A DNA stretch of 64,000 bases from the IMG/VR virus record IMGVR_UViG_3300022723_000262, positions 1 through 64,000 of that record; one strand, 5' to 3'. A model generated the notes under the pieces. The model did not search any database. It saw nothing but the letters and a program-made list of their open reading frames with translations, and was not told where the DNA came from. Source of the stretch: a virus. Below are positions 5,344 to 45,540 of the stretch, one piece after another (the stretch's first letter is position 1; each line of letters starts with the position of its first letter). Made by a program: the position numbers and the translations under genes.

Positions 5344-5344
5344 G

Positions 5345-17575: not shown

Positions 17576-17601
17576 CGTGGCCCTCCCCGTGTGTTTCCGG
17601 A

Positions 17602-17631: not shown

Positions 17632-17715
17632 GTGCCCGCCGCAGAATTGACCTTAATTTAATAGGTAACGACTTGCGGCAAATACTCCCAGATCAGTTTG
17701 TTCACCGCCGCAACC

Positions 17716-20638: not shown

Positions 20639-20684
20639 GTCCACCCCTGGGTTATGTATGCCGTTTGCGCGCGGCACTGCGCGC
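20639..20684 (-). promoter_or_regulatory. Phage composite promoter motif, copy A (integration operon)
   Basis: Read on the minus strand: GCGCGCAGT, ten unconserved bases, AACGGCATACATAAC, three unconserved bases, then GGGRNGRAC. CGCAGT and TACATA are 17 bases apart, as in a -35/-10 pair, with the GGG block about where transcription would start. Copies C (21591-21636) and B (41614-41659) match with no gaps. It points at the 83-aa gene of the recombinase operon, 48 bases downstream. Confidence 0.75.
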
Positions 20685-20689
20685 GGCAC
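20666..20689. repeat. Perfect 12-bp tandem duplication
   Basis: TGCGCGCGGCAC occurs twice head-to-tail (20666-20677 and 20678-20689). The junction creates the upstream element of promoter copy A, so the duplication may set or tune the promoter or add a second protein-binding site. Confidence 0.8.
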
Positions 20690-20714
20690 GCGCAATAAGA
20701 GACGCGAAGGACCG

Positions 20715-20751
20715 TCTGCGCAAAGGGATAGAAAATGTCCCCCTGCGCAGA
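20715..20751. promoter_or_regulatory. Inverted repeat in the divergent regulatory region
   Basis: TCTGCGCA (20715-20722) and TGCGCAGA (20744-20751) are perfect 8-bp inverted arms with a 21-bp spacer, between promoter A and the sigma-like gene. It could bind a dimeric regulator. No T-run follows, so a terminator is unlikely. Confidence 0.5.
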
Positions 20752-20805
20752 TCGCTGTTCACCCGTCCCGCGACTGCCGACCGGCAAGAAAACCCCGGTT
20801 TTTCA

Positions 20806-20846
20806 GATGCCACACGCTTTGTGGCATCGCCACACGAGTTGTGGCG
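20806..20846. promoter_or_regulatory. Two tandem dyad operators upstream of the sigma-like gene
   Basis: GATGCCACA-CGCTT-TGTGGCATC (20806-20828) and CGCCACA-CGAGT-TGTGGCG (20828-20846) are perfect palindromes with the same core GCCACA-N5-TGTGGC. Their centres are 20 bp apart, two helical turns. They lie 145 bases upstream of the sigma-like ATG and no T-run follows. The geometry fits cooperative binding of a dimeric repressor or activator that controls the sigma-like gene. The rest of 20591-20990 has no convincing gene. Confidence 0.72.
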
Positions 20847-20990
20847 CCCCGTCTCCGCCGAGAGGACAAAACCCGGCGGTCACGGCTCGCGTCTGTGTCG
20901 TTTCTGCGGCCATCCGGTGCGCCGCAGCACAGCCAATCTTCGCGTACCCGGTGAATCGCCCTGGGTGGCTGCCTCCGGCAGGAGGTAGTC

Positions 20991-21584
20991 ATGAACGAGG
21001 GGTCTTCCGGTAACGAAGTTCTCAACAAGTACGCCCGCACATTGATCCGCGTCAAGGCCAAGCAGCTTGTCCGGCGGCACGGTTTCAGTCGGTCGGATCA
21101 GCCGGACGTCGAGCAGGAATTGTCTTTGCACCTGCTGAGCCAGGCATCGCACTTCGATCCCGCCCGCGGGTCGCTCAACACGTTCGTCGCCAGCGTCGTC
21201 AACTCGGCGGTGGCAATGCTGGTCCGCGAACGGGAGCGGGTGAAGCGGAGTCCCGGCGAGGACGTCGAGGTCCAGTCCCTGGCCGAGAAAGTGGAACAGC
21301 CCGATGGGCCGCCCGCGCCGCTGTGGTCGATCATCTCGATCCTGGACCTCGAGCGTCGCACCGGTGGCGATTCACCGTCTGACATCGAGCTGTTCGAACT
21401 GACGGAAGGAGTCCGTGCCGCCATCGCGTCGATGCCGCCGGAGCTGCGCCGCGTCTGCCGCTCGTTGCAGAAGCGCACCCGAACCGACACCGAACGCGAC
21501 TTGAAGATTTCGCGCAGAAATCTCGACGCAGCTATCGACTTTATCCGTCAGCACTTGACGCGTGCTGGTCTCGCGAAAAGTTAG
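20991..21584 (+). CDS. Sigma-70-like protein (ECF-type architecture)
   Basis: 197 aa, with GGAGG 7 bases before the ATG. Residues about 30-90 fit sigma region 2: DQPDVEQELSLHLLSQ, then FDPARGSLNTFVASVVNSAVAMLVRERERVKR, the core-binding and -10-melting helices. Residues about 140-195 (RAAIASMPPELRRVC, then ERDLKISRRNLDAAIDFIRQHL) fit a divergent region 4. It lies between divergent copies A and C of the phage promoter motif, so it is a good candidate to read that motif. It could instead be a sigma-like regulator. No anti-sigma gene is visible next to it. Confidence 0.75.
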   Translation: MNEGSSGNEVLNKYARTLIRVKAKQLVRRHGFSRSDQPDVEQELSLHLLSQASHFDPARGSLNTFVASVVNSAVAMLVRERERVKRSPGEDVEVQSLAEKVEQPDGPPAPLWSIISILDLERRTGGDSPSDIELFELTEGVRAAIASMPPELRRVCRSLQKRTRTDTERDLKISRRNLDAAIDFIRQHLTRAGLAKS

Positions 21585-21590
21585 GCGGCC

Positions 21591-21636
21591 GCGCGCAGTG
21601 GGGCACGCCAACGGCATACATAACTACGGGAAGGAC
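21591..21636 (+). promoter_or_regulatory. Phage composite promoter motif, copy C (early operon)
   Basis: GCGCGCAGT (21591-21599), ten bases, AACGGCATACATAAC (21610-21624), three bases, GGGAAGGAC (21628-21636). It begins 6 bases after the sigma-like stop codon and points into the early/replication operon, whose first ATG is 28 bases downstream with AAGGAG in between. It matches copies A and B without gaps. Confidence 0.78.
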
Positions 21637-21664
21637 ACTCGAATCCACTTCCAAGGAGTGACCC

Positions 21665-21967
21665 ATGACCGTTGGCGTGTTCCGTTTTTCATTTTCACCC
21701 GAAGTCCCGATCTACGAAGTCGAGATGACGCTACAACTGGCGACCTTCGCCACCGAGGGTTTGTTCGGCGCGGCACGGGTGCGACTCGACTTCGGCTACC
21801 ACATCGATCTGAACCGTCGCGTGATCATCGCCGACGGCTCGAACGAAGTGGGCGCGACGGTCGTGCAGATTTTCGCTGGCCTGCTCCTGCGTGAATTCGG
21901 TGATGACTCGTTCCAGGTCGACCGCGTCGACTCGAATCCCACCCCGCCCTTGAAAGCCGCCGCGTGA
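21665..21967 (+). CDS. Hypothetical protein, first gene of the early operon
   Basis: 100 aa with AAGGAG before the ATG. It is beta-rich with alternating hydrophobic residues (FRFSFSPEVPIYEVEMTLQLATF) and no known motif. Its stop overlaps the next gene's GTG start (GTGA), so the two are coupled. As the first product from promoter copy C it may be an early takeover or regulatory protein, by position only. Confidence 0.68.
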   Translation: MTVGVFRFSFSPEVPIYEVEMTLQLATFATEGLFGAARVRLDFGYHIDLNRRVIIADGSNEVGATVVQIFAGLLLREFGDDSFQVDRVDSNPTPPLKAAA

Positions 21968-22227
21968 GTTCGTGGGGCTTGCCGATTCCCGTGGCGACTG
22001 CCACGCCTGGTTGGCTGGAGCACTGTCACATGAATACCGAACGCAGGAAGCGCACGTGCCTGAAGTGCAACCGGCTCTTCGATTCGGCCGGTCCCGGCAA
22101 CCGCATCTGCCGGCGCTGTCAGCAAGTGAACGACCGTCTGCCGCGATTCACCGAACAGCAGTTGCAGAAACAACGCGGCGTCAAGCGGCACAACGGCGAC
22201 ATCATCGAACCCGTCCTGGATGAATGA
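21964..22227 (+). CDS. Small zinc-ribbon protein
   Basis: 87 aa from a GTG at 21964 that overlaps the previous stop; an ATG at 22030 would give about 65 aa starting directly before the zinc site. CLKCNRLFDSAGPGNRICRRC supplies two CxxC knuckles of one zinc ribbon, followed by a basic tail. Phage proteins of this type bind nucleic acid or transcription machinery. Specific function unknown. Confidence 0.68.
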   Translation: MSSWGLPIPVATATPGWLEHCHMNTERRKRTCLKCNRLFDSAGPGNRICRRCQQVNDRLPRFTEQQLQKQRGVKRHNGDIIEPVLDE

Positions 22228-22244
22228 TGGTCGGAGCAAACCAC

Positions 22245-23285
22245 ATGACACAACTCGCACCCGCACCGCCGGACAAGAGCGTGCTGACGTTCTCGGCGCT
22301 GAACACGTTTCGCAACTGCCCGCGGAAGTACAAGCATCGCTATATCGACTGCCTGCGGCCGCGGGAGAAGCCCGATGCCCTGTCGTTCGGCAGCGTCGTG
22401 CATGGCGCGATCGAACTGTGGTATCGATCGGAGCCGAGCGAGAACCGCCTGTGGTCGGTGCTGGACTACCTCGATCAGCAGTTTCCGCTGCGGGTCGTCG
22501 ATGACGAACAGAAGGCGACGTGGAACCTGGCCCGCGCGATGTTCACAGGGTATGCCGGCCGTTACGCGACCGAAGACTTCGAGATCGTCGAGGTCGAATT
22601 GCCGTTCACCGGCGAGATCCGCAATCCCGATACCGGTCGGCCGAGCCAGACGTTCGTGATGGCCGGCAAGGCAGACGCCATCGTGAAGCGATCCGATGGC
22701 ATGTATCTGCTCGAGCACAAGACCGCGTCTTCGATCGACGCGAACTACCTCGACAAACTGTGGACCGACACTCAGATCGCGCTCTACAGCTTTTATCTGC
22801 GGCAGCTCGGCTATCCGATTGTGGGCGTGATCTACAACGTCCTCCTCAAGTCACGTCTAAAGCAGAAGGCGGGCGAGACGGAAGCTGAGTACGAAACGCG
22901 GCGCATGGAACTGGCGGCCAAGAACAAGAGCGGCCGTTCGACCGCCAAGCGTCAGATGCCGGAGTCGGACGAAGAGTTTCAGGCCCGTCTCGCCGAATGG
23001 TACGCCCGCCCTGACGCCTTCCACCGCGAGCACATTTATCTCTCTGAAGACCGCCTGGCCATGTTGCAGGAAGAGGTCTGGGAGATCACGCAGCAGTATC
23101 TTGACGCCCGCCGGCGCGGCAAATGGCTGCTCAACACTTCGAACTGCTTCTCGTACCAGCGCCCCTGCGAGTACCTGCCTTACTGCCAGTCCGGCTTCAA
23201 TCCGAACGTTGTCGACAACCTCTACGACATCTCACCTCCGCATGAGGAGCTGGCACCGGCCGATTCCGAAGCACCCGTTTTTTGA
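22245..23285 (+). CDS. RecB/Cas4-like PD-(D/E)XK exonuclease with Fe-S-type cysteines
   Basis: 346 aa from the ATG at 22245, which has GGAG upstream (an ATG at 22224 is also open). The start of the domain, TFSALNTFRNCPRKYKHRYID, and FGSVVHGAIEL are typical of AddB/RecB nuclease domains. The core is GKADAIVKRSDGMYLLEHKTAS (D...E-x-K). The late cysteines NCFSYQRPCEYLPYC with the early NCPRKY Cys fit a four-Cys Fe-S staple. It is probably the phage recombination exonuclease, working with the ATPase and DUF669 gene that follow. Confidence 0.87.
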   Translation: MTQLAPAPPDKSVLTFSALNTFRNCPRKYKHRYIDCLRPREKPDALSFGSVVHGAIELWYRSEPSENRLWSVLDYLDQQFPLRVVDDEQKATWNLARAMFTGYAGRYATEDFEIVEVELPFTGEIRNPDTGRPSQTFVMAGKADAIVKRSDGMYLLEHKTASSIDANYLDKLWTDTQIALYSFYLRQLGYPIVGVIYNVLLKSRLKQKAGETEAEYETRRMELAAKNKSGRSTAKRQMPESDEEFQARLAEWYARPDAFHREHIYLSEDRLAMLQEEVWEITQQYLDARRRGKWLLNTSNCFSYQRPCEYLPYCQSGFNPNVVDNLYDISPPHEELAPADSEAPVF

Positions 23286-23299
23286 CAAGGAGCACCCCC

Positions 23300-24088
23300 A
23301 TGACTTTGACGTTGCCCACACAACGCACCAAACCGATCACCGACCTCAGCAAACAGACCATCCTGCTGTATTCGGCGCCCAAGCTCGGCAAGTCCACGTT
23401 TGCGAGTCGTTTCCCCGAAGCCGTCTTCTTCGAGTGCGAGCCTGGCCTCAGCCACTTGGAAGTTTTCAAGGTGCCGACCTACACCTGGGACGATTTCCTG
23501 GCGGCGTGCAAGCTGGTCGCGCAGGGCAACCACCCGTTCAAGACGATCGTGATCGATACAGCGGACAATGCTTTCAAGTTCTGCAGCGAGCACGTCTGCG
23601 CGAAGCACAACATCGAATACGAAGGCGACATGGGGCACGGCAAGGGCTGGGCTCTGGTCAAGAATGAATGGCATCGCGTGCTTACACGGTTGGCCAGCCT
23701 GCCGTACGGTCTGGTTCTCATCTCGCACGCCCAGGACAAGACGATCGAGACGCGGACTGGCGAATACACCAAGACGCAGCCGAGCTTGCCGGATCGCGCT
23801 CGCGGCGTCGTGCTCGGCCTGGTTGACATCATCCTCTACGGCGACGCGATTCCGCGCAAGGACGCTGCCGGCAACGTCACGATCGATCGCGTCATGCGCA
23901 CCAAGCCGCATCCGACTTACGAAGCCGGTGACCGCACCGGTCGCCTGCCGGATGTCCTGCCCCTCGATTACGACGCCTTCGTGAAGGCATTCAATTCCGC
24001 TGCTCCCGGCTCGATTCCCGGCACCGGTGGCGCGGCGGAGCGTTCCAAGCAGCCGGGAAGCACCCAAAACGGAAAGGCTCAAAAATGA
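23300..24088 (+). CDS. Sak4-like AAA ATPase (phage recombinase family)
   Basis: About 262 aa from the ATG at 23300, with AAGGAG 8 bases before. Walker A is the variant YSAPKLGKSTFASRF near residue 20, Walker B is TIVIDTADNAF, and LVLISHAQDK is a sensor-like strand. This is a RecA-core ATPase of the phage nucleotide-binding family (Sak4/DUF-type), which promotes single-strand annealing with a cognate SSB. The next gene, DUF669, is the usual SSB-like partner. The C-terminal tail is Gly/Ser-rich and poorly conserved. Confidence 0.87.
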   Translation: MTLTLPTQRTKPITDLSKQTILLYSAPKLGKSTFASRFPEAVFFECEPGLSHLEVFKVPTYTWDDFLAACKLVAQGNHPFKTIVIDTADNAFKFCSEHVCAKHNIEYEGDMGHGKGWALVKNEWHRVLTRLASLPYGLVLISHAQDKTIETRTGEYTKTQPSLPDRARGVVLGLVDIILYGDAIPRKDAAGNVTIDRVMRTKPHPTYEAGDRTGRLPDVLPLDYDAFVKAFNSAAPGSIPGTGGAAERSKQPGSTQNGKAQK

Positions 24089-24549
24089 GCGAGTACGACG
24101 ATAGCTTTGCCCCCGACAACAGCGGCGTTGACCTCAGCGCGTTCGACGACGATTTTTCCTCGGCCGAAGCGCCCAGCTTCGACGAAGTCCCCGACGGCAA
24201 GTACCAGGCGCGGATCGATGAAGTGCGGTTGGACCGCAGCCAGAAGGGTGACCCGATGATCAAGTGGGACTTGATCGTGATCGCCGGGTCGCAAGCGGGC
24301 CGCCACATTTTCAAGAACTCGGTGATCACCCCGGCGGCGCTGCCGTTCGTGAAGGGCGACCTGAAGACCGTGGGCCTCGAGCTGGCCAAGTTCAGCGATC
24401 TTGCCGGTCGGCTTGAGGAACTGCTCGACGTGACGTTGGAGGTCACCAAGCGAACGCGCGGCGAGTACACAAACGTGTACTTCAACAAGCGGATTCAGAT
24501 CGCGGCGGATGCTGCCGGTCGACCGTCGGCCGACGAGACTCCGTTTTGA
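24085..24549 (+). CDS. DUF669 protein, probable phage single-strand DNA-binding protein
   Basis: 154 aa. The start overlaps the ATPase stop (ATGA). It has an acidic N-terminus, then the DUF669 pattern PDGKYQARIDEVRLDRSQKG and IKWDLIVIAGSQAGRHIFKN, and ends in DETPF. That acidic-Pro-Phe tip resembles the last residues of bacterial SSB, which recruit partner enzymes. With the nuclease and the ATPase it forms a recombination/replication module. SSB function is inferred from the tail, the beta-rich body and gene order. Confidence 0.83.
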   Translation: MSEYDDSFAPDNSGVDLSAFDDDFSSAEAPSFDEVPDGKYQARIDEVRLDRSQKGDPMIKWDLIVIAGSQAGRHIFKNSVITPAALPFVKGDLKTVGLELAKFSDLAGRLEELLDVTLEVTKRTRGEYTNVYFNKRIQIAADAAGRPSADETPF

Positions 24550-24595
24550 TCAGGGATGAAACCGGCACCAAAGCACTCCTGTGACCACGGGTGCG

Positions 24596-24708
24596 GCCGA
24601 GGCGGGATGGCGTGCCCTGCGGCAAACAACGATGCGGCATCGCCGGGTCCGCATCATGCCGGTGGGGAAAGACTCCCCGTGCCCGCCTCGGCTCTTTTTT
24701 GTTTTTTG
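24596..24708 (+). ncRNA. Structured RNA or attenuator with terminator-like 3' end
   Basis: An 11-bp outer stem pairs GCCGAGGCGGG (24596-24606) with CCCGCCTCGGC (24682-24692). Inside are three possible hairpins: TGCC-CTGC-GGCA, GATGCGG/CCGCATC with an 11-base loop, and GGGG-AAAGACT-CCCC. Two T-runs follow directly (about 24695-24707). The four-stem layout with a U-tail is too elaborate for a plain terminator and sits inside the early operon, between DUF669 and the ERCC4 nuclease. It could be an attenuator, a riboswitch or a small RNA. Confidence 0.6.
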
Positions 24709-24730
24709 CAATCACGGATGTGACGCCGGC

Positions 24731-25183
24731 ATGGACTTTCAAATCGTAATCGACTCGCGGGAGCAGGAACCATACTCGTTCGCCTGTCCGGTTGTCCGCG
24801 CCAAACTCGACGCGGGCGACTACTCGGTGTCGGGCCTCGAGCGCCGCGTCGCGGTTGAACGCAAGAGCCTGTCAGACTTCGTCCACACCGTGATCCACGA
24901 TGCGACTCGGTTTGCGGCCGAGTTGCAGAAGCTGGCTGGCATGGATACCGCCAGCATCGTGGTTGAAGCCAACCTGGACGACGTGCTGCGCGGCCACCAC
25001 GAGGATGTGCTGCGGTCCGTCGTTCCGCAGGCAGTCTTGGGCGCAGCGCTGCATATCGCACTGCATTGGGGCGTCCCTGTCTACTGGTGCGGCTCCCGCC
25101 AGGCTGCCTGCGCGTTCACGGATGCCTACCTTCGGATGTTCGTGCGGACGCTGGTCGCACAGGAAGGTGCTCGCGATGCCTGA
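24731..25183 (+). CDS. ERCC4-domain structure-specific nuclease
   Basis: 150 aa from the ATG at 24731. The ERCC4 nuclease core is visible: IVIDSREQEPYSF (residues 5-17), LDAGDYSVSGLE, then VAVERKSLSDFVHTV with the ERK catalytic triad. Relatives (XPF/Mus81 fold) cut branched DNA. It overlaps the RecD2-like helicase start by 8 bases, so both are coupled. A role in resolving replication or recombination intermediates is likely. All catalytic residues appear intact. Confidence 0.9.
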   Translation: MDFQIVIDSREQEPYSFACPVVRAKLDAGDYSVSGLERRVAVERKSLSDFVHTVIHDATRFAAELQKLAGMDTASIVVEANLDDVLRGHHEDVLRSVVPQAVLGAALHIALHWGVPVYWCGSRQAACAFTDAYLRMFVRTLVAQEGARDA

Positions 25184-27341
25184 CAAAATCAGCGGCACCG
25201 TTGATCGAACATATTTTACGAGCCCCAAGTTCTCGGCCGGCGTTCTCCTGGCCGACACCGGCGATCGCGTTCGGTTTCGAGGTCCGTTCTGTGTCAATGA
25301 AGGCGACCTGGTCACGCTAGTCGGCCGCTGGAAGGTCGACCCGAAGTACGGTCCGCAGTTCGCCGCCGACAGTCTCAGTTACGAATTGCCCAATAGCCCC
25401 GAGGGGTTGGTTCAGTACCTTGCCAAGCATCCGGCATTCGTAGGGATCGGAGAGGCGACGGCCCGCAAGATCGTGGCGCATGCCGCCAGCGCAGCGCATC
25501 TGGACCGCTTGATCCGTCAGGACATCGACGAGCTGCACCGGGAGCTGCGCATTCGCAAGTCCACGCTCGAGTCGCTCCGCGAAGCCTGGATTGCGCACAG
25601 TGCCGACAACGAGATTCGCTCGTACCTGGCCAGCTTCGGTCTGACCCATCATCAGATGGAGACGCTTCTGCAGACGTTCGGTAACTCGGTGGTCGGCGTG
25701 CTCCGTGCCGATCCGTATCAGCTGATCAGTTACGTAAAGGGCTACGGCTTCAAGAAGGTCGATAAGATCGCCCGCGCCATGGGCACGCCCAAGGACCACG
25801 CCGGACGAATCGAGGCTGGAGTGCTCTTTATCGTGAGCGATGAACTGTCCTCGGGTCACACATGGACAGCGGGTGCGGACCTGCTCGACAAGGCTAATGG
25901 CCTGCTACTGCTGGATACGCTCGATAGCCGCGACGTGATTCGGGCAGCCGCTGAGCGATTGCTGCAGGAGGGACAGTTGGTCGCGGACGGCAACGCCGTC
26001 ACGATGCCGTGGTGCCTGGAGACGGAACGGTTCATCCAATCCGTATTCGACCTGCAAGGTTGGGCAGAGCGTCCACTGGCCGGAATACGGCTGCAGCTGA
26101 CCGGACTGAAAGCCAAGCAAGCGGAAGCCTGTCGTGCTGCGCTGCGATACGGGATCGTCGTCATCTCCGGCGGTGCCGGTACCGGCAAGACCTATGTGTT
26201 GGCCCGACTGGCGAGGTCATTTCAAGACTCCCGGCTACGCGTTGCCCTTTGTTCTCCGACCGGCAAGGCGGCCAAGCGAATCGAGGAATCCCTCCGCGCT
26301 CAGGGACTCGATCTCGAAGCCAAGACAATTCACCGATTGCTGGAGTACGACGGACACGAGTTTCATCGGGAAAGCCTGTCGCAGCCGAGCGATGACGACG
26401 ATGACGCCGATCCCGGTTTCGATGTCGTGATCATCGATGAGGTCTCGATGGTGGATGTGCCGCTGATGGCTGAGTTGCTGCGGCGCATCGATTTCTCGCG
26501 AACGCGGTTGATTTTGGTCGGCGACCACAACCAGCTGCCGCCGGTCGGACCCGGCAACGTGCTGCGGGACGTGATCCAGCACAATCTGGTGCCGACCGTG
26601 ATTCTCGATGAAGTCGTCCGCCAGGCCGGTGTGCTCAAGACCAACAGCATGGCCGTGCTCTCTGGCGCAATCGCGCCGACAGCCGTGGACGATCCAGCGT
26701 GGTCGGTCGTCGACGTCTTCCAGGATCCTCAGCAGATCCAGGTCTATCTGCGTGAACTCGTCCTGCAGAAGATCCCCGATCGGCTGCGGTTGGACCCGAT
26801 CAACGACGTCCAGATCATCACCCCCACGCACATCGGCTCGCTCGGGACCAAAGCCATCAACCAAATGATGCAGCGACTGCTGCACGGCGAGGTTGCGCGA
26901 AAGTTCGCGGTTGCCGACAAGGTCATCCAAACCGTCAACGACTACGGCCTCGGTGTGATGAACGGCACGATCGGGCGTGTTGTCGAAATCGAGCCTGGAC
27001 CGGGCGGCGGATACTGGATCGACTTCGACGGCTCCGGCGTGCGGCACATCAAGGACGAACAGGTGCTCAACGTCCAGCTTGCCTACGCACTCACGGCACA
27101 CAAGGCCCAAGGCAGCGAGTTCCCTTGCGTCGTCGTGCTCTGCCACAAGTCGCACTTCTTCGCGGATCGCAACTGGATGTACACCGCCGTCACGCGGGCG
27201 GCACGGTATTGCATCCTGATGGGCGACCGCTGGGGCCTGCGCAACGCCGTCAAGAAGAACAACACGATTCGGCGGCGGACGTTTCTCAACCTGTGGGCAT
27301 CCGCCGCTGAACCGGCTTCGCCACTGGAGGTGCCCGCATGA
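25176..27341 (+). CDS. RecD2-like SF1 helicase
   Basis: About 721 aa from the ATG at 25176; the open frame extends upstream only in antiphase to the ERCC4 gene. The N-terminal half has the OB/HHH-like RecD2 region (HPAFVGIGEATARKIV). Then come Walker A GGAGTGKTYVLARL (about 330), motif II VVIIDEVSMVD, and ALTAHKAQGSEFPCVVV with AVTRAAR near the end. It is a 5'-3' DNA helicase for phage replication or recombination. The host-side RecD-like protein at 8408-12139 is a different family member. Confidence 0.92.
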   Translation: MPDKISGTVDRTYFTSPKFSAGVLLADTGDRVRFRGPFCVNEGDLVTLVGRWKVDPKYGPQFAADSLSYELPNSPEGLVQYLAKHPAFVGIGEATARKIVAHAASAAHLDRLIRQDIDELHRELRIRKSTLESLREAWIAHSADNEIRSYLASFGLTHHQMETLLQTFGNSVVGVLRADPYQLISYVKGYGFKKVDKIARAMGTPKDHAGRIEAGVLFIVSDELSSGHTWTAGADLLDKANGLLLLDTLDSRDVIRAAAERLLQEGQLVADGNAVTMPWCLETERFIQSVFDLQGWAERPLAGIRLQLTGLKAKQAEACRAALRYGIVVISGGAGTGKTYVLARLARSFQDSRLRVALCSPTGKAAKRIEESLRAQGLDLEAKTIHRLLEYDGHEFHRESLSQPSDDDDDADPGFDVVIIDEVSMVDVPLMAELLRRIDFSRTRLILVGDHNQLPPVGPGNVLRDVIQHNLVPTVILDEVVRQAGVLKTNSMAVLSGAIAPTAVDDPAWSVVDVFQDPQQIQVYLRELVLQKIPDRLRLDPINDVQIITPTHIGSLGTKAINQMMQRLLHGEVARKFAVADKVIQTVNDYGLGVMNGTIGRVVEIEPGPGGGYWIDFDGSGVRHIKDEQVLNVQLAYALTAHKAQGSEFPCVVVLCHKSHFFADRNWMYTAVTRAARYCILMGDRWGLRNAVKKNNTIRRRTFLNLWASAAEPASPLEVPA

Positions 27342-27604
27342 CACCTCAACCGCAAGCGAGCCACGATCCGGTCGCGCATCCTCGCCACTACACGTTCGGC
27401 GGCATCGAAGTGATCGATGCAATCGAAGCGTGGTGGCTGGGATTTCATCTGGGCAACGTCGTGAAATACGTCGCGCGGGCCGCCCACAAGGGAACCTATC
27501 TCGAAGACCTGCGGAAGGCTCGCTGGTACCTGGACCGGGAAATCGAGCGACGAACTGCTGAGCGACCACCAGTTACCGACACACCGCGGGAGATCGAAAC
27601 ATGA
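27338..27604 (+). CDS. DUF3310 protein
   Basis: 88 aa. HDPVAHPRHYTFGGIEVIDAIEAWWLGFHLGNVVKYVARAAHKG matches the DUF3310 pattern (NHPxHY...EviD...f..gNviKYv.Ra.kK), a small alpha-helical protein common in phages and related to nucleotide pyrophosphohydrolase-like folds. Starts and stops overlap the neighbours on both sides. Presumed role in nucleotide metabolism during replication. Confidence 0.88.
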   Translation: MTPQPQASHDPVAHPRHYTFGGIEVIDAIEAWWLGFHLGNVVKYVARAAHKGTYLEDLRKARWYLDREIERRTAERPPVTDTPREIET

Positions 27605-30656: not shown

Positions 30657-30670
30657 AAAGGACCAAACCC

Positions 30671-33380: not shown

Positions 33381-33388
33381 GAGATGAG

Positions 33389-34309: not shown

Positions 34310-34321
34310 GTCCGTGTCCTT

Positions 34322-34552
34322 TTAACGTCGCTCGCGGGCAACCATCTCGTGGTGCCATTTCCACAGGTCGATTTCGTCGTCAGTTGCCGGGCGAACCGTG
34401 CGAATCTCAATCGGCACGTCCTTACCGAGTCGCTCGCGCAAGTCGGCGTACAGGTCATACAGCGCAGGCTGCCCGAGTCGGCGCGCCTCGCTTTCGGATT
34501 CGGCGTCCACCAAAACGTATCGGGCGAGCGTGGCGACAAGGTAGGTGGTCAT
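34322..34552 (-). CDS. Small acidic hypothetical protein
   Basis: 76 aa, GAAAGGAA before the ATG. N-terminal strand TYLVATLARYVLVDAESESEARRLG looks like a DpnD/PcfM-like beta-alpha module, a weak resemblance. A variant of the accessory leader motif lies 41 bases upstream (34593-34615). Function unknown. Confidence 0.62.
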   Translation of the reverse strand: MTTYLVATLARYVLVDAESESEARRLGQPALYDLYADLRERLGKDVPIEIRTVRPATDDEIDLWKWHHEMVARERR

Positions 34553-34592
34553 GGCGGGTTCCTTTCGTTGTTGGTTTTCAAACGCCCTACCT

Positions 34593-34615
34593 GTGACAGA
34601 GAGCCATTATTTCCG
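34593..34615 (-). promoter_or_regulatory. Accessory-block leader motif, divergent third copy
   Basis: Minus strand reads CGGAA-N5-GGCTC-TCTGTCAC, against CGGAA-N5-GGCTC-ATGTGTGAC at 36604-36627 and 37775-37798. It lies 41 bases before the ATG of the 76-aa gene, a distance similar to the other two. Confidence 0.5.
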
Positions 34616-34714
34616 CCAAAGATCAATAGGCGTGGAGCGCGTTGGCGGCACGGCGCGACGTTTGCGCCGTGTCGCGTCCGGCGGACGTGCTTGGCCAGCG
34701 GGCCAACCAACGAG

Positions 34715-34736
34715 AAAACGCCCCACGTGGGGGCGT
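34715..34736 (-). terminator. Rho-independent terminator of the accessory subunit
   Basis: On the minus strand ACGCCCC-CACGT-GGGGCGT is a 7-bp stem with a 5-base loop followed by TTTTC. It sits 24 bases after the stop of the 176-aa gene, so it ends the upper part of the leftward block; the lower genes have their own leader motif. Confidence 0.65.
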
Positions 34737-34759
34737 GTGGGGCGACGTCGTGGCGAACG

Positions 34760-35290
34760 TTACGGTTGCTCGCCCGTTTCGTTGACCAAGACGGCCATGT
34801 CGTCGCACCAAGCGGCCTGTTTGGTGAACCATTCGGCTTGCTTGGCATCGTCGGTTGCCTCGGCGGCTTCGCGCCAAATCGCGGCGGCCCGACGCCAGTT
34901 GCACTCCCGCTGTGCCTCTTCGGCCTCGCGGGCCAGGCGGTCGCCGGTGACGTGCTCCAGCGCGTGGTACTCGGCCATCGCGTCCTCGTAGAAGAACCGC
35001 GACGTCGGGAATATGCGGCGGTGCCGAACAGTGAGGCAGCCGCGTTCCTTCATGAAGGCGACCGCTACCGACACCTGCGTGCAGGGAACGTCGGGAGCGG
35101 CCTCCCAAAGCACGCCGGTTGTTACGCCCTGGCCGGCGTGCTCTTCGATAAAGTGCGCCACCGCCTTGTAGGACGCAATCGAACAGCGGTGGCTGTACGT
35201 GCCGCCGTCGGGTTTCGCTACGGTGCGAACCAGGTGTCCCAGTTCGACCGTGAACGTTTGGCGCTGGTCAACGGGTTGCGTGCGAGTCAT
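34760..35290 (-). CDS. Hypothetical accessory protein
   Basis: 176 aa, GGAGGG before the ATG. The middle (VTTGVLWEAAPDVPCTQVSVAVAFMKERGCLTVRHRR) has winged-helix rhythm: helices followed by a beta-wing. The C-terminal half is helical and Ala/Trp/Glu-rich (AEEAQRECNWRRAAAIWREAA). Followed by a terminator. DNA-binding is a guess; no family named. Confidence 0.65.
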   Translation of the reverse strand: MTRTQPVDQRQTFTVELGHLVRTVAKPDGGTYSHRCSIASYKAVAHFIEEHAGQGVTTGVLWEAAPDVPCTQVSVAVAFMKERGCLTVRHRRIFPTSRFFYEDAMAEYHALEHVTGDRLAREAEEAQRECNWRRAAAIWREAAEATDDAKQAEWFTKQAAWCDDMAVLVNETGEQP

Positions 35291-35293
35291 CGG

Positions 35294-35497
35294 TTATCCC
35301 TCCACGCGGCTGCGCAGCCGTTGAGCCGACCGGATCGTGATGTGTCGGCCAGTCCTTTCGTTCACGGCGACGATCGTCGTGCGGTAACGCCCGCCGAACG
35401 TCGAAGTCTCCTTCAGGTCCAGCACGCGAACGGTGGTCAGGCTGCCGGAGACTTTGGCGCGGTAGCGCCCGCCAACTTCGATGTCTTTCAGTTTCAT
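35294..35497 (-). CDS. Small beta-rich protein
   Basis: 67 aa with a good ribosome-binding site (AAAGGA). MKLKDIEVGGRYRAKVSGSLTTVRVLDL is a small SH3-like or KOW-like strand pattern. It ends 3 bases before the next gene, in the same operon. Unknown function. Confidence 0.62.
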   Translation of the reverse strand: MKLKDIEVGGRYRAKVSGSLTTVRVLDLKETSTFGGRYRTTIVAVNERTGRHITIRSAQRLRSRVEG

Positions 35498-35569
35498 GGC
35501 GTTGTCCTTTCGTGGTTGAGAAATGAAAACGGCCGCCGTTGCCGGCGGCCTGTTCGGATCGAGTTGCGT

Positions 35570-35944
35570 TTAGCCGTTGGCAGCGAACTTGCCGCGTTCG
35601 GTCTTCTTGAAGCGGGCGTCGTTTCCCTTGGTGTTGATCTCCCGCAGAATGGCGCTGTACAGCGTCGCGTGCGGCGTCTTGCCTCCTGGGCTCGTCCAAA
35701 GGTTCTTGGCGGCCATCGCTTCGACCAGTTCCTTGGCGTTCATCGCCTGCTTCGTGTCGGTCAGCACCTTGGCCGCCGCGTCGATGGCGCTCAGCTTCTT
35801 GTCCTTCGCCTCGCCGTTGCCGCTGGCGGCCTTGGTCTTGGGCGAAGCCTTCTTCTTGGGCGCGGCCTTCTTGGTGGCGGCCTTCGCGCCCGAGGCCTTC
35901 TTCGCGGTCGTCGCCTTCTTCGTCGTGGTCTTCTTGGTTGCCAT
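35570..35944 (-). CDS. HARE-HTH protein with histone H1-like lysine-rich N-terminus
   Basis: 124 aa from the ATG at 35944 (GAGGAG upstream; an earlier ATG at 35992 is unlikely). Residues 1-50 are repeats of KK/AK/TK (ATKKTTTKKATTAKKASG), as in bacterial histone-like tails. Residues 52-124 match a HARE-HTH winged helix: DAAAKVLTDTKQAMNAKELVEAMAAKNLW, then TLYSAILREI and FKKTERGKFAANG. Planctomycete chromosomes encode such H1-like proteins. Here it is phage-borne, perhaps coating or silencing DNA. Confidence 0.82.
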   Translation of the reverse strand: MATKKTTTKKATTAKKASGAKAATKKAAPKKKASPKTKAASGNGEAKDKKLSAIDAAAKVLTDTKQAMNAKELVEAMAAKNLWTSPGGKTPHATLYSAILREINTKGNDARFKKTERGKFAANG

Positions 35945-36040
35945 GATCTGGCTCCTCATGAAAAACGGTCGCGATGGTTGGGCTGCCATCATCAGGCGGC
36001 GGGTACCACCCGCCGCGACGCCCGCGTGGGCGTTTCGGCT

Positions 36041-36310
36041 TTAGTGGGCGGCGTCCCAGGCCCGCTTGGTCCCGTAGCAAAGCTGCTGGCCTTCGCAGAT
36101 ATAGACCACCTGGTCTGCCTCGACGTCTCCGTCGTCGTTCGGGTCGTCATCGTCGGCTTCGTCGTTGATCTCCTGACCCGACGCCAAGCCGAAGATGTCG
36201 TTCTCGAAGGGCCAGTTGCTCTGCGTCATCAGTCGCACTTCGGCGTCGCCGCCGAGCTCGTCGCGGTAGTCTTCCAGTCGTTCGATCAATTCGTCGATGG
36301 TCATGGTCAA
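36041..36310 (-). CDS. Small acidic phage protein
   Basis: 89 aa, AAAGGAG before the ATG. TIDELIERLEDYRDELGGDAEVRLMTQSNWPFE resembles proteins seen in phage and mobile-element gene blocks. An Asp-rich run follows. Unknown function. Downstream (35990-36040) two GC-rich hairpins may end the transcript but have no T-run. Confidence 0.66.
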   Translation of the reverse strand: MTMTIDELIERLEDYRDELGGDAEVRLMTQSNWPFENDIFGLASGQEINDEADDDDPNDDGDVEADQVVYICEGQQLCYGTKRAWDAAH

Positions 36311-36331
36311 GGCTCCTTTCGTGGTGGGTGG

Positions 36332-36559
36332 TTACTCTTCGGTGCCGTCGAGGAAGGCGACGATCGCCGAGAGCCGGTTGTTGACTTCGTTCACGCTGCC
36401 GACGTCGGCCCAGTTGATCGGGTGCTCGTCGTTGCCGGGCGCGGGCAGGTCAAACAGCAACTCGCGGATGCGTTCGACCAAGTCTTGCGCGACCAGGTGG
36501 GCGTTCTCGTAGGCGGCCTCGGCGGTCAGGTTCGGCTTCTTCTTTCGGTTGGCGTTCAT
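36332..36559 (-). CDS. Small hypothetical protein of the accessory block
   Basis: 75 aa starting MNANRKKKPNLTAEAAYENAHLV, mostly helical. GGAG lies 7 bases upstream of the ATG. The leader motif at 36604-36627 is 44 bases upstream. The first four residues (MNAN) are the same as in the amidoligase gene, which has the same leader, suggesting a duplicated expression cassette. Confidence 0.62.
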   Translation of the reverse strand: MNANRKKKPNLTAEAAYENAHLVAQDLVERIRELLFDLPAPGNDEHPINWADVGSVNEVNNRLSAIVAFLDGTEE

Positions 36560-36603
36560 GCGTATTCTCCGTTTGGTTGGCGTTCGGGATTTGCGTTACG
36601 ACA

Positions 36604-36627
36604 GTCACACATGAGCCAGGAATTCCG
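36604..36627 (-). promoter_or_regulatory. Accessory leader motif, copy 1
   Basis: Minus strand CGGAA-N5-GGCTC-ATGTGTGAC, identical at 23 of 24 bases to 37775-37798. Similar sequence continues upstream on the minus strand. Both precede a gene starting ATGAACGCCAAC. Interpretable as a promoter/operator; a clean -35/-10 pair is not evident. Confidence 0.65.
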
Positions 36628-36838
36628 ACACACAGCAAGCGCTGTCGGGGAACATTCCGCCGGAATTCAGCAGGTTTTTGCTGCTGTCAAACGGGGCAAG
36701 GTTGGCGCGGGTTGGCCCCCGTTGGCCGCGTGTCGCGACGGGGCTGGCAAATGGCCAAGAGAATCGCCAGCCGTTAACGAAATACGCCACGCGGCCGCGC
36801 GGGCGACTACGTGGCGTTTGTTGGCGAAGGCTTCCGCG

Positions 36839-37711
36839 TTAAGCGGCGCTGCGGCTGGTCCCGTCGTACTTGCGGGCCATTTCGATCAGCTTCGTCTTGA
36901 TCGCCTTGAGGTCGGGCGTAGCGTTCTCGCCCGTGAGTTGCCCGTAGACCTTGTCGCGAAGCGCTCCCTTGTACCAGCCTTTGGTCCATCCCAGCCGGTA
37001 GAAGAGTCGGTTGAGTTCCGTCTCGCCTTCGCCCGCGCCCGGTCGATCCCAGCAGCTTCGCGTCCCTTCGCGCTTCGTGTATTCCCAATCCGAGCGACGC
37101 TTCGTGTTGAGCGCGAGCTCTACCAATCCCAGGCACATCATCAGGTACCCGGCGACCTTGATCTTGTTCAAAGTTCCTGCGAACGCTCTGAATTCGATTC
37201 GATTCTTCCCGCGGGCCAGGTGCGTGAGGTTCAACATGTGGTAGCGGTCGGCTTCGCAGCGTGCCTTCGCGCTGTCGTGGTTGCCGTAGTTCTTGATCGT
37301 CTTGCTGTAGCGGTTCTGTTCGCGGCGTCGCGTGCCCGTGCTGGCGTAGATCGCCTGTTCGTGGTTCCCGACCAAGGAGACCAATCGAGCGAGCGCTGCG
37401 GCATCGCCATCGAAGGTACATGTTACGTGGAGGCCTGTTGTGAAATTCACTCGGCCCCCGCGGGCGTTGATCGCGTCGATCGCGGCGAGCACCTGTTGCA
37501 AGCCTTCATATCCGCGAAGCTTCGGGCTTACGAATTCACATCCCTTGCGTCCGGGCGCCAACGTTTGAATCGAGCTGTCTCGTTCCGCCTTCCAACCTTC
37601 GGGCAGCCAGGGAACCTGCACTCCGTGGTGGTACGAGCCGATCGGCGTGGTGTCGTTGGCCGGCAAGGTGCATTCGAACTCGAGGCCCCAAAAGATGGCG
37701 TTGGCGTTCAT
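36839..37711 (-). CDS. Putative amidoligase (Amidoligase_2 family)
   Basis: 290 aa from the ATG at 37711 (AAAGGA 10 bases before); the longer frame to 37783 starts in the leader motif. The family's order is visible: FWGLEFECTLP at the start, KAERDSSIQTL, GCEFVSPKLRG, then FTTGLHVTCTFDGDAAAL and NRIEFRAFAGTLNKIK. These are the COOH-NH2 ligase (glutamine-synthetase-like) signatures. Such enzymes make amide bonds on peptides or proteins. In a phage accessory block it could tag a host or phage protein. Confidence 0.82.
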   Translation of the reverse strand: MNANAIFWGLEFECTLPANDTTPIGSYHHGVQVPWLPEGWKAERDSSIQTLAPGRKGCEFVSPKLRGYEGLQQVLAAIDAINARGGRVNFTTGLHVTCTFDGDAAALARLVSLVGNHEQAIYASTGTRRREQNRYSKTIKNYGNHDSAKARCEADRYHMLNLTHLARGKNRIEFRAFAGTLNKIKVAGYLMMCLGLVELALNTKRRSDWEYTKREGTRSCWDRPGAGEGETELNRLFYRLGWTKGWYKGALRDKVYGQLTGENATPDLKAIKTKLIEMARKYDGTSRSAA

Positions 37712-37774
37712 CGTGCGGTCGTCCTTTCTTGGCGTTGGTTTGTGTTGTCGGGCGAGGCGTCGTTCGCTTCGCGA

Positions 37775-37798
37775 GTCACACATGAGCCAGGAGTTCCG
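37775..37798 (-). promoter_or_regulatory. Accessory leader motif, copy 2
   Basis: Minus strand CGGAA-N5-GGCTC-ATGTGTGAC, 63 bases upstream of the amidoligase ATG. See copy 1 at 36604-36627. The ATG inside the motif opens a longer frame that is not the real start. Confidence 0.65.
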
Positions 37799-37989
37799 CA
37801 GAACCTCAAGCCAGGAAAAGCAGCTTTCTGCCGAGATTTCGCATGTTTTTTGGGGCGGCCACGGGTGGCCCCGTTTGGCCCCACGTCGCGTCGCAAAACC
37901 GGGCCAACAAGGAGGCGAACTTCGCCCAAAGCCGCCCCAGTTCGCGCCGTGTTTCGCCAGTGGCCGAGCGGGGCCGAAGGGGGGCGCGG

Positions 37990-38199
37990 ATGAGTGCAGA
38001 CAACGCCCCGGTGGACCCGAATCGGCTCACGCCAGAGCAAGCCGCCAAACTGCTGTCGGCCGCCGCCAAGGTGCGCGTCCCCGTGAAACAGATCACTGCT
38101 GACCTCGAGGCTGGCGTGCCGACGAATCCGGACGGCACGCTCAACCTCGTGCAATACTGCGCTTGGTTACTGAAAGAGATGGGACGACGTGGCGAGTGA
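37990..38199 (+). CDS. Small protein preceding the terminase (possible small terminase or linker)
   Basis: 69 aa, GGGGGG before the ATG. LTPEQAAKLLSAAAKVRVPVKQITADLEAGVP has a short HTH-like pattern. It overlaps the large terminase start by 11 bases. By position it could be the small terminase, but it is shorter than usual for that role. Confidence 0.55.
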   Translation: MSADNAPVDPNRLTPEQAAKLLSAAAKVRVPVKQITADLEAGVPTNPDGTLNLVQYCAWLLKEMGRRGE

Positions 38200-40459
38200 T
38201 CCCCGAAAGCTACGACCAAGCGAACTATGCCGCTTGTTGAACTCGACGTCGCTGGGCGAAGTGATCAACGAGCGGCAATTGCATCGCCATCGCACGCGGG
38301 CCGGCATGCGGATCGGCGACGGGCGTTACGTGGACCTGTTGCGCTACGTCGCGTGGTTGATTGAGATTCGCCACACACCGCGCCCGGAACCGGAAGGCGA
38401 TCCGTATGAGAAGCTGAAGGAACGGGCTCGCGCTCGCAATGTCGCGCTGGCTATCGCCGGTCGTGACATTGGCGAGTTGCCGGAGGTCGTAAACGCCGAC
38501 CGGAAGACTCGGGCCGCGACCGACTTTCAATTCTTCTGCGAGTCGTATTTCCCGCTGACGTTTCACCTGCCGTGGTCGCCCGATCACTTGAAGGTCGTCG
38601 CCAAGATCGAACAGGCGGTGCTGCGGGGCGGTCTGTTCGCGATGGCGATGCCTCGCGGCTCGGGCAAGACAACCATCTGTGAATGCGCCTGCATCTGGGC
38701 GGTGCTCAACGGCCATCGCGAGTTCGTCTGTCTGATCGGATCGGACGAAGGCCATGCGATGGACATGCTCGACTCGATCAAGATGGAACTTGACGGTAAC
38801 GACCTGCTGCTCGAGGACTATCCGGAAGTCGTCTATCCGATTCAATGCCTCGACGGGATCGCCAACCGCTGTAACGGTCAGCTCTACAAGGGCGAGCGGA
38901 CGCACATCGGCTGGACTGCTCGCGAGATCGTGCTGCCAACGATGCCGGGGAGCGTCGCGAGTGCGGCGATCATCAAGGTCGCCGGCATCACCGGGCGCAT
39001 TCGCGGGATGAAATACAAGCGGTCCGACGGGCACACGGTTCGTCCGTCGCTTGTGGTGCTCGACGATCCGCAAACGGACGAATCTGCTCGATCGCTCTCA
39101 CAATGCGCAACGCGCGAAGGCATTCTGGCTGGGGCGATTCTTGGCCTGGCCGGCCCCGGCAAGAAGATCTCCGGCATCATGCCTTGTACCGTCATCCGTC
39201 CAGGCGACATGGCCGACAACATCCTCTCGCGTGAGCGACACCCGGAATGGAATGGCGAGCGAACCAAGATGGTCTACTCGTTTCCCAGCGACGAAAAACT
39301 CTGGCAGCGCTACGGCGAGCTCCGCGCCGAGAGCCTTCGCGCCCACGGCGACATCCGTCTCGCCACGGAGTTCTATGTTGCCCATCGTGGAGCGATGGAT
39401 GCCGACGCGGAGATCGCTTGGCCCGAGCGGTTTAACCATGACGAGGAATCGGCAATCCAACACGCCATGAATCTCAAGCTACAGGACGAGGCTGCCTTCT
39501 TCGCCGAGTACCAGAACGAGCCGCTACCGACGGACGCCGCAACCGACGACGAGTTGACGCCCGATCAGATCGCCGGGAAGACAAACCGTATGCAACGTCG
39601 TGTCATTCCCATCGGATGCAACCATGTGACGATGTTCGTTGACGTCCAGGCCAACCTGCTGTTCTTCGTCGTGGCGGCATGGGAGGACGACTTCACAGGT
39701 TATGTCGTGGACTACGGGGCGTTTCCCGATCAGAAGCGCCCCTTCTTTACGCTTCGCGACGCACGCAACACACTCACACGGGTGACCAAAGCGAGCGGCC
39801 TCGAAGGATCGATCTATGCAGGCCTGGAGCACGTGACGGAGGAGTATCTCGGTCGCGAGTGGAAACGCGACGACGGTGCGATGCTGCGGATCGAACGGTG
39901 TCTGGTCGACGCCAACTGGGGTTCTTCAACGGACGTCGTTTACCAGTTCTGCCGACAGTCGGCACACGCAAGTGTGATCATGCCGAGTCACGGTCGTTTC
40001 GTCGGGGCATCCAGTCAACCGTTCTCAGAATACAAACGAAAACCGGGCGATCGTCTGGGGCACAACTGGCGGATGCCGAACGTGCATGGCAAACGGGCCG
40101 TGCGTCACGTGGTTTACGACACCAACTACTGGAAGTCATTCGTCCATGCTCGCCTGGCGGTCACGATGGGTGATCGCGGATGTCTGTCCTTGTTTGGCGA
40201 CAGTCCCGATCAGCATCGGTTGTTTGCGGAGCACCTTTCGGCCGAATACCGCGTCAAGACGGAAGGGCGTGGCCGGACCGTAGACGAGTGGAAGATGCGA
40301 CCCGAGCGAGGCGACAACCACTGGTTCGATTGCCTGGTCGGCTGCAGCGTGGCTGCCTCCATCCAGGGCGTGGTGCTCGCCGGAACGGGTAGCGTCCCGC
40401 CACCACCCGTTCGCGAGCGAATCAGCTTCGCCGAAATGCAGCGGAGGCGCCGTGGATGA
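38189..40459 (+). CDS. Phage terminase large subunit
   Basis: 756 aa from a GTG that overlaps the preceding gene. An N-terminal HTH-like region (GEVINERQLHRHRTRAGMRIGDGR) precedes the ATPase with Walker A AMPRGSGKTT (about 154-163) and Walker B LVVLDDPQTDE (about 287). The C-terminal nuclease starts at TMFVDVQANLLFFVVAAW (about 480). The enzyme packages DNA into proheads. The N-terminal HTH may recognise the packaging site and compensate for a missing small subunit. Confidence 0.9.
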   Translation: MASDPRKLRPSELCRLLNSTSLGEVINERQLHRHRTRAGMRIGDGRYVDLLRYVAWLIEIRHTPRPEPEGDPYEKLKERARARNVALAIAGRDIGELPEVVNADRKTRAATDFQFFCESYFPLTFHLPWSPDHLKVVAKIEQAVLRGGLFAMAMPRGSGKTTICECACIWAVLNGHREFVCLIGSDEGHAMDMLDSIKMELDGNDLLLEDYPEVVYPIQCLDGIANRCNGQLYKGERTHIGWTAREIVLPTMPGSVASAAIIKVAGITGRIRGMKYKRSDGHTVRPSLVVLDDPQTDESARSLSQCATREGILAGAILGLAGPGKKISGIMPCTVIRPGDMADNILSRERHPEWNGERTKMVYSFPSDEKLWQRYGELRAESLRAHGDIRLATEFYVAHRGAMDADAEIAWPERFNHDEESAIQHAMNLKLQDEAAFFAEYQNEPLPTDAATDDELTPDQIAGKTNRMQRRVIPIGCNHVTMFVDVQANLLFFVVAAWEDDFTGYVVDYGAFPDQKRPFFTLRDARNTLTRVTKASGLEGSIYAGLEHVTEEYLGREWKRDDGAMLRIERCLVDANWGSSTDVVYQFCRQSAHASVIMPSHGRFVGASSQPFSEYKRKPGDRLGHNWRMPNVHGKRAVRHVVYDTNYWKSFVHARLAVTMGDRGCLSLFGDSPDQHRLFAEHLSAEYRVKTEGRGRTVDEWKMRPERGDNHWFDCLVGCSVAASIQGVVLAGTGSVPPPPVRERISFAEMQRRRRG

Positions 40460-40650
40460 AGCAATCCAAGCCTTCTCGCTCGGAACGCGGAATCTGCTGT
40501 CCGCAATGTGGTTGCCGGCACTTCGATACCACGCACACGGAGCCGCTTCGCGACGGGCGTATCCGACGCCGCAAGACATGCCGCCACTGCGGTCGAAAAG
40601 TCGTGACTCACGAGGTCACGCAGGTTGGTTCGCCGAACAAATCCGACTAA
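40456..40650 (+). CDS. Small zinc-ribbon protein after terminase
   Basis: 64 aa; ATG overlaps the terminase stop (ATGA). CPQCGCRHFDTTHTEPLRDGRIRRRKTCRHCGRKVVTHE is very like the N-terminal zinc ribbon of NrdR and phage zinc-finger proteins. Transcription or DNA-binding role likely. It ends 8 bases from the convergent peptidase gene. Confidence 0.75.
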   Translation: MKQSKPSRSERGICCPQCGCRHFDTTHTEPLRDGRIRRRKTCRHCGRKVVTHEVTQVGSPNKSD

Positions 40651-40657
40651 CTGTAGC

Positions 40658-41482
40658 TCATACTTGCTTTGCTCGCGCGATTGCAATAACGGTGCGCAGA
40701 CGATTGATGACAGTGTCTGTGCTGTCACCAAACAGATCGGCTCGGACAGGTGGAAGCTCAACTGACGTTTGAAGGCCGCTTGTGAACAGGCGATATGTTT
40801 CCGCACGAACCGCATCGACGTGTATTTGTGGCAGGAGTGCGATCCTCACAGAAGGATGGCCATGCGACCGGTTCATGCATTCCGCGTCGCATTCGTCCCA
40901 GTCGACCTTCTTCTTCCCGCGCATCCAGTCTTCAAAGAGATTAGCAAACAACTCCGACGACGCGTGCCGCCACGGCAGTATGGCGTCTGCAGCGTCTGAA
41001 TCCGACTCGATCGGCCGATTGCTCGTACGGTCGGTTCGGGAACCGCCCGACTCTCGCACGGTGAGCCGGTAGAAGCGGGAGAACCAGCGAAAGGAAAAGC
41101 CAATCTCCTGATCGCCACCCGACCAGGTGCGGTCTACGTGATGGCCCCACTCGTGATACAGGATGAATTCACCCGGTGCGACGAGAAACGGAGGAGGCGG
41201 CGGCTCCATCCCCAGCGCACGCATATCTCGCATTACCTCGCCGCTAAAAGCGCCTTCTGGATGCACGTATCTGCCGCCTGCATGTGTGATGCCACTTCGG
41301 TTTCCGCTCCGAGTCTTAACCACGACGCACGTCGGGTCATGGAAACCTCGCTCGGCAAGGCGCCTGAGCCCTCGCTTCAAGCCGGGCGAAATGCGCTCTC
41401 CGTAAGACTGGACCCGAAAGCCGTGAATTGTGACCACGGAGGAGAGGTCACGATCGCTTGTCGTGGAGGGATCGGCGTCCAT
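40658..41482 (-). CDS. Zinc metallopeptidase-like protein (HEXXH), antisense moron
   Basis: About 274 aa from the ATG at 41482 (the frame extends to 41524). FILYHEWGHHVDRTW carries the HExxH zinc-peptidase motif near residue 110, and SSELFANLFEDWM provides a downstream Glu as possible third ligand. No signal peptide is visible. It is the only leftward gene among the rightward late genes, lying between terminase and portal, so it probably has its own promoter and is an accessory (moron) gene. Substrate unknown; it could act on host proteins or in lysogenic conversion. Confidence 0.72.
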   Translation of the reverse strand: MDADPSTTSDRDLSSVVTIHGFRVQSYGERISPGLKRGLRRLAERGFHDPTCVVVKTRSGNRSGITHAGGRYVHPEGAFSGEVMRDMRALGMEPPPPPFLVAPGEFILYHEWGHHVDRTWSGGDQEIGFSFRWFSRFYRLTVRESGGSRTDRTSNRPIESDSDAADAILPWRHASSELFANLFEDWMRGKKKVDWDECDAECMNRSHGHPSVRIALLPQIHVDAVRAETYRLFTSGLQTSVELPPVRADLFGDSTDTVINRLRTVIAIARAKQV

Positions 41483-41613
41483 CGTAAGCCTTCGGCGAGC
41501 AATGACGGTTGACTGTCGTCGCATGGTACATCCCGAGGTTGATCCAGCAAAGATTCAACCTCCGAGAACCTCATTGCTAGATGTAGCACGATTTCGGGAA
41601 ATCTTCGCCGCCA

Positions 41614-41659
41614 GCGCGCAGTCCGACCTCTAAACGGCATACATAACCAAGGGACGAAC
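41614..41659 (+). promoter_or_regulatory. Phage composite promoter motif, copy B (late operon)
   Basis: GCGCGCAGT (41614-41622), ten bases, AACGGCATACATAAC (41633-41647), three bases, GGGACGAAC (41651-41659). It points into the head gene cluster; the first candidate start is the ATG at 41733 (a GTG at 41676 is also open). Matches copies A and C without gaps, 20 kb away. Confidence 0.78.
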
Positions 41660-41930: not shown

Positions 41931-41931
41931 C

Positions 41932-45478: not shown

Positions 45479-45540
45479 GCAACCCTGGCCGTTCGTAGCT
45501 CAGGCACAACTCGACAGTTAACTCCGAGAGAGGAAAACCA

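Follow-up and report, generated by a model that had tools for sequence, protein, structure and literature searches.

Three copies of a 46-bp motif in a 64,000-nucleotide stretch of viral DNA (the window; positions 1 to 64,000 of IMG/VR record IMGVR_UViG_3300022723_000262) are very probably promoters, read by the host RNA polymerase when it carries an ECF-like sigma factor that the phage itself encodes (20991-21584), as judged from sequence comparison. The copies themselves, the homology of the sigma factor, a conserved gene layout and the covariation of site and sigma are computational results and are presented in turn.

Three copies of a 46-bp motif point into three operons

The initial annotation had reported gap-free copies at 20639-20684 (minus strand), 21591-21636 (plus) and 41614-41659 (plus), and all three are present with 0 mismatches at 32 specified positions. 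By chance none would be expected, as 100 dinucleotide shuffles gave 0 matches. The whole-record search that the annotation had proposed, run on the 65.5-kb virus record with a 15-bp core and ≤1 mismatch, returned the three known copies only, and the reversed pattern, used as a control, had no match in that record. Copy 1 consists of GCGCGCAGT (20684-20676), AACGGCATACATAAC (20665-20651) and GGG (20647-20645). Copy 2 begins 7 bp past the sigma stop codon and has its -35 box at about 21593-21599, its -10 region at 21613-21622 (TACATA at 21617-21622) and GGG at 21628-21630. In copy 3, the -35 box lies at about 41616-41622, TACATA at 41640-41645 and GGG at 41651-41653. Copies 1 and 3 are intergenic.

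The claim that each copy points into an operon on its own strand also held. Copy 1, the predicted sigma-dependent promoter of the integration operon, faces genes for a DUF2924 protein (19676-20164, minus; PF11149, E=8e-43) and a large serine integrase (18117-19680, minus; phrog_95, PF00239, PF07508, PF13408). Copy 2, the predicted promoter of the early operon, faces replication and recombination genes (21665-30177, plus), comprising small ORFs, an exonuclease (22224), Sak4 (23282), SSB (24085), a RecD-like helicase (24900) and a primase (27601). Copy 3, predicted to serve the late operon (41887-54459, plus), precedes the portal (41887), capsid/protease (43376), decoration (45541) and tape measure (50812) genes, so that tail genes lie downstream of it in addition to portal and capsid; a small ORF starts near 41734, between copy 3 and the portal gene. 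The terminase large subunit gene (38189-40459, plus) is expected on the early transcript because it lies upstream of copy 3. Besides the motif match, these assignments draw on an integrase-upstream site in 12 further phages, in either orientation (copy 1), on a post-sigma site conserved in relatives (copy 2), and on a conserved post-terminase site that covaries with sigma (copy 3).

Inverted copies, long and nearly identical, lie on both sides of the sigma gene (82% identity over 49 bp), as would also be the case if the copies were recombination or packaging sites, or recent duplications, with no regulatory role. We regard this as extremely improbable, since the 10-bp spacer and the 3-bp gap vary among copies whose boxes are invariant, and since position and orientation track the operons across phages of wholly different sequence.

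Several neighboring features were recorded. The integrase ORF itself extends to 20342, and its true start was placed near 19,680 by inference from the homologue in relative G013; an N-terminal extension was rejected because it would overlap the DUF2924 gene. The leftward operon also holds, downstream of the integrase, a DUF5131 gene (phrog_2045) and after it a 300-aa gene with neither a Pfam nor a PHROG match (15832-17575, minus). At 35977-36040 on the minus strand, Rfam identifies a type II hammerhead ribozyme (RF02276; E=3.3e-8, 51.7 bits where the gathering score is 37), which is antisense to a large plus-strand ORF (33266-37993, 1575 aa), which has no PHROG match.

The window encodes an ECF-like sigma factor

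Between copies 1 and 2 lies a gene (20991-21584, plus) that the initial annotation had not mentioned. Pfam, PHROG, TIGR02937 and fold evidence identify its 197-aa product as an ECF-like sigma factor, which we propose as the reader of the three promoters. It scores 26.8 bits with Pfam Sigma70_r2 (cut-off 24) and falls in phrog_1740, a PHROG of sigma factors. Across a family alignment of 37 members, the sigma70-ECF superfamily model TIGR02937 matches 37/37 at E<0.05 (best 3e-18); the window protein reaches 36.2 with this model, below the curated cut-off of 42.9. Pfam finds region 2 in 34 of the 37 and region 4 models in 15-16, region 4 of the window protein being visible only via alignment and profile, and region 3 is absent from the Pfam families listed for the sigma relatives. 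Regions 2 and 4 without region 3 and the N-terminal region 1.1, in about 200 aa, is the architecture of ECF (group IV) sigma factors, and the window protein agrees with it. When solved structures were searched with a profile of the family, ECF sigma factors ranked first. The AlphaFold model (mean pLDDT 82.9) consists of two helical domains with a linker of lower confidence between them. Its matches are sigma subunits in RNA polymerase complexes, at whole-chain TM-scores that are low (about 0.3-0.4), as expected if the orientation between the two domains is uncertain.

ECF genes usually, not universally, have an autoregulated promoter of the same type and an adjacent gene for a cognate anti-sigma factor. 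Among the neighboring genes inspected, none stood out as an anti-sigma gene. No motif copy stands in front of the sigma gene on its strand in the record, which holds 3 copies in total. For want of such a same-type autoregulatory promoter we call the protein ECF-like and assign it to no named ECF group, and its gene is presumably held off by something else.

Gene layout is kept in Planctomycetota relatives

When only the sigma protein was used to scan phage records and viral contigs, no relatives came up, because the sigma gene diverges fast, and an exact-motif scan of viral contigs gave one further phage, L084. With the terminase and the exonuclease as baits in place of sigma, we found hundreds of terminase relatives in viral contigs and others in bacterial genomes, nearly all of them labelled Planctomycetota, with a few MAGs labelled otherwise. 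In profile searches the sigma gene immediately precedes the early genes at most exonuclease loci, as it does in 26 of 31 assembled contigs, and prophage-carrying genomes have sigma homologues upstream of the terminase on the same strand. The layout kept in Planctomycetota relatives is thus a sigma gene before the early genes, with sites after sigma, after the terminase and often before the integrase.

Some loci carry additional genes near sigma. Two sigma-like genes are adjacent in L108 (7070-8378, in tandem) and in L101 (7872-9348, on opposite strands). Sigma is preceded in G029 (7117-10121), G002 (2922-5451) and G039 (16961-19229) by a pair of adjacent same-strand genes, each of about 340-450 aa; the G029 pair comes after an ORF with a zinc-protease-like HExxH motif.

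Sites differ between phages and match the sigma factor within one phage

In each phage we compared two regions, one following sigma (D) and one following the terminase (T). Within most phages D and T share a gapped motif, which differs from phage to phage: the window type is GCGCGCAG...CGGCATAnnTAAC, and other types are CGTCA...CCGGGTAnnTCTACAG, GCCAGTTTG...GAGTAGTTCAAG, GGACATCTCG...TGCATATGTAACC and GGGACGTCG...TTGCATAGnTAGT. Over 43 phages, including those without a visible site pair, the mean self score was 21.3 against 12.9 for swapped partners (permutation p=5e-5; the best of 20,000 permutations reached 15.6). A clear pair is seen in about 27 of the 43. The automatic comparison gave no convincing pair in the other 16, among them TBK1r, SV_7m_r and K23_9, and only G002, G029 and G044 of these were recovered by box-level scans or inspection; the sites of G031 and G038 were registered by hand.

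The late site lies about 13-20 kb from the sigma gene and nevertheless follows it. Among the 27 clear-pair phages, T-site similarity correlates with sigma similarity when the terminase is held constant (partial Mantel r=0.64, p=2e-4, a test that does not fully remove shared ancestry), as against 0.18 for the terminase with sigma held constant. Controlling for terminase, portal, capsid, Sak4 or integrase leaves a partial r of 0.59-0.66 for sigma, and 0.03-0.19 for those proteins. These phages were selected for a clear D/T match, a selection that does not itself create a T-to-sigma relation. Natural swaps agree with these results. G038 and G039 have 96% identical terminases, 22% identical sigma factors and unrelated late sites. 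The terminase and portal proteins of G029 are 95-97% identical to those of the window and its sigma 43%; its late site, GCGGACAG...GAGCATAAGTAAC, is of the GGACAG type, and identity to the window is 35-50% around this site against about 90% in the following coding sequence.

The covariation bears on whether the sites might instead bind some other phage regulator, a repressor or an activator, as operators that overlap ordinary promoters. A common regulator would likewise place one motif at three operon starts, and candidate operators of another kind do exist upstream of sigma. Yet the motif is asymmetric, is always aimed at the operon and carries a pair of boxes spaced as in promoters; its variation goes with that of sigma and not with that of any other protein tested, and no conserved non-sigma regulator was recognised beside the sites among the genes tested. 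We consider such operators unlikely and favor promoters that the phage sigma would read.

Anatomy of the predicted promoter

Registering the 27 phages on the -10 core gave a gap-free alignment. Agreement within phages reaches 85-100% in two blocks, columns -19 to -13 and 1 to 10, drops to 19-26% in spacer columns -7 to -5 and rises again to 59-93% in columns 13-18, where transcription would begin. TA at columns 5-6 is near-universal, mostly with T at column 9. The sites thus have two elements at near-constant spacing in an orientation set by the downstream operon, as sigma-70-type promoters do. The initial annotation had placed a conserved GGG block at the presumed start. Its position stands up in the relatives, in which columns +13 to +18 after the core agree 59-93% within a phage and 35-55% between phages; its letters do not, since they differ in other phages.

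In the window, the GCGC(G)CAG box would be the -35 element, touched by sigma region 4, and the (CG)GCATAnnTA box an extended -10 element, touched by region 2, with the GGG block about at the transcription start. For the -35 box of the T site, the correlation is 0.52 with region 4 given region 2 and 0.11 with region 2 given region 4. The -10 box tracks both about equally (region 4, 0.47; region 2, 0.51), and the D-site -35 box correlates with both regions (region 2, 0.34). The mapping of domain to box is therefore clean only for the late-site -35 box.

Integrase sites and host chromosomes

A site upstream of the integrase was found in 13 phages (the window, L084, L343, G005, G029, G014, G019, G036, G039, G043, G048, R. 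rubra and R. obstinata), in each case on the strand of the integrase and under both gene orders. Two are weaker: the G005 site scores only at the null maximum, though its -10 core matches at 10/12 positions, and that of R. obstinata has 3 mismatches. The L084 site, a leftward copy upstream of sigma, is putative, with the integrase presumed to lie on another part of the contig. Several other contigs end too near the integrase for this site to be judged. In some phages a further site precedes other genes.

Copies in the host chromosome away from operon starts had been named as evidence against the promoter reading. In cultured lysogens of relatives, perfect copies occur at prophage positions only. 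The motif of the C3 prophage of R. rubra, searched in the 8.5-Mb genome with ≤1 mismatch, has three matches, one each before the integrase, after sigma and after the terminase. Two other site types have perfect matches in R. obstinata, A. aestuarii, CA13 and R. rubra contig C2, and these lie at paired prophage positions. Weaker matches, with 1-3 mismatches, are scattered elsewhere in the chromosomes; many lie near other prophages, and only a part of these matches was traced. A promoter element shared upstream of phage operons and absent elsewhere is expected of a phage sigma that controls phage development, and it is the pattern seen here.

Planctomycetes have many ECF sigma factors (a first-look profile search gave 46-145 candidate places per genome), and the sites could in principle be promoters of a host alternative sigma, the phage sigma acting otherwise, for example on host genes. 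However, a host factor would favor one site type per host, and the R. rubra prophages on two contigs, C2 and C3, differ in site type, the sites of each being matched to its own sigma; we judge a host sigma to be very unlikely. As the initial annotation had favored, the sites are best read as one element-specific promoter that serves integration, early and late operons alike; the comparative tests back this reading.

Candidate control of the sigma gene

Upstream of the sigma gene we identified two palindromes, GCCACA-N5-TGTGGC, 20 bp apart (20809-20845), which are candidate operators and are conserved in L084, G002, G013 and L343. The palindromes of G039, G046 and G048 differ (TTTTGGGAATTTCCCAAAA). 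No repressor gene for the twin palindromes was found, nor was any sigma-70-type promoter around the sigma gene.

The sigma mRNA is predicted to start with a structured leader (20850-20993) that contains a conserved GAGAGGACAAAACCCGGCGGTC-like block, a stem-loop and a Shine-Dalgarno hairpin. The stem-loop (20893-20932, plus) has 12 pairs, 7 of them changed on both sides, and its covariation score was reached in 0/500 shuffles. RNA folds place the second hairpin at 20966-20991 (plus), where it would sequester the Shine-Dalgarno sequence of sigma (AGGAGG); a hairpin over the ribosome-binding site is found in most relatives examined. Leader structure lies upstream of sigma in L084, L343, G002, G003, G005, G029, G032, G041 and others, and it has no Rfam match. 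Palindromes and leader together suggest that sigma may be subject to repression plus control at the RNA level.

Discussion

From these patterns we infer binding, transcription starts, the direction of control and the order of events, as follows. Host core polymerase, once joined by the phage sigma, would start transcription at the three sites, and production of this one protein would turn on the integrase operon from copy 1, the early operon from copy 2 and the late operon from copy 3. The sigma gene itself would be held off by something other than the motif, for which the twin palindromes and the structured leader hiding the ribosome-binding site are candidates. More tentatively, and as a possibility that we rate somewhat below even, the temperate planctomycete phages of this large family may run their whole programme of integration/excision, replication and virion assembly from one sigma gated by an operator pair and an RNA leader. 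The family would then diversify by joint swapping or retuning of sigma and promoter, which may stop co-resident prophages, such as those of R. rubra contigs C2 and C3, from activating each other.

In the literature searched, mostly of free access, we found no paper on this phage family or its promoters. If the model is true, it would describe a control circuit in phages whose host phylum yielded, in that literature, no account of phage transcription control. It would also offer a natural set of matched sigma/promoter pairs, with about ten sequence types among 27 phages, from whose co-variation a recognition code could be read and directly tested. Such pairs could serve as independent gene switches, and the idea that promoter specificity diverges among prophages of the same cell to avoid cross-activation would become testable.

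Phage-encoded sigma factors with dedicated promoters are already known from 7-11 and phiEco32, from PBSX (Xpf) and from SigN. New would be that a single sigma serves integrase, early and late operons alike in a temperate family, and that so many natural sigma/promoter pairs exist. Compared by description, Xpf is like the window protein a prophage sigma-like factor, in its case of the defective PBSX of B. subtilis (PMC4243946). It drives the late operon of PBSX and is not known to drive others, and in this and in its host phylum it differs.

Phages 7-11 and phiEco32 encode the sigma factors SaPh711_gp47 and phi32_gp36; the promoters of 7-11 are bipartite (GTAAtg-16-aCTA), and between the two phages promoter positions are conserved whereas promoter sequences and sigmas differ (PMC8948821). 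The likeness is that a phage sigma redirects host RNA polymerase to few phage promoters, as we propose for the window. However, those phages are lytic, and they use their sigma for middle and late genes and leave early genes to the host sigma-70. In contrast, the window family carries integrases and has sites also before the integrase and early operons, and the present comparison spans dozens of phages rather than two.

SigN (ZpdN) is the sigma of pBS32, a plasmid/cryptic prophage of Bacillus subtilis (PMC6751061). It resembles the window sigma as we picture it in being element-encoded, in having a regulon largely within the element and in starting the programme upon its derepression. SigN switches on its own gene and has promoters that mostly bypass structural genes, whereas the window sigma gene has no motif copy in front of it and the window structural operon does have a site.
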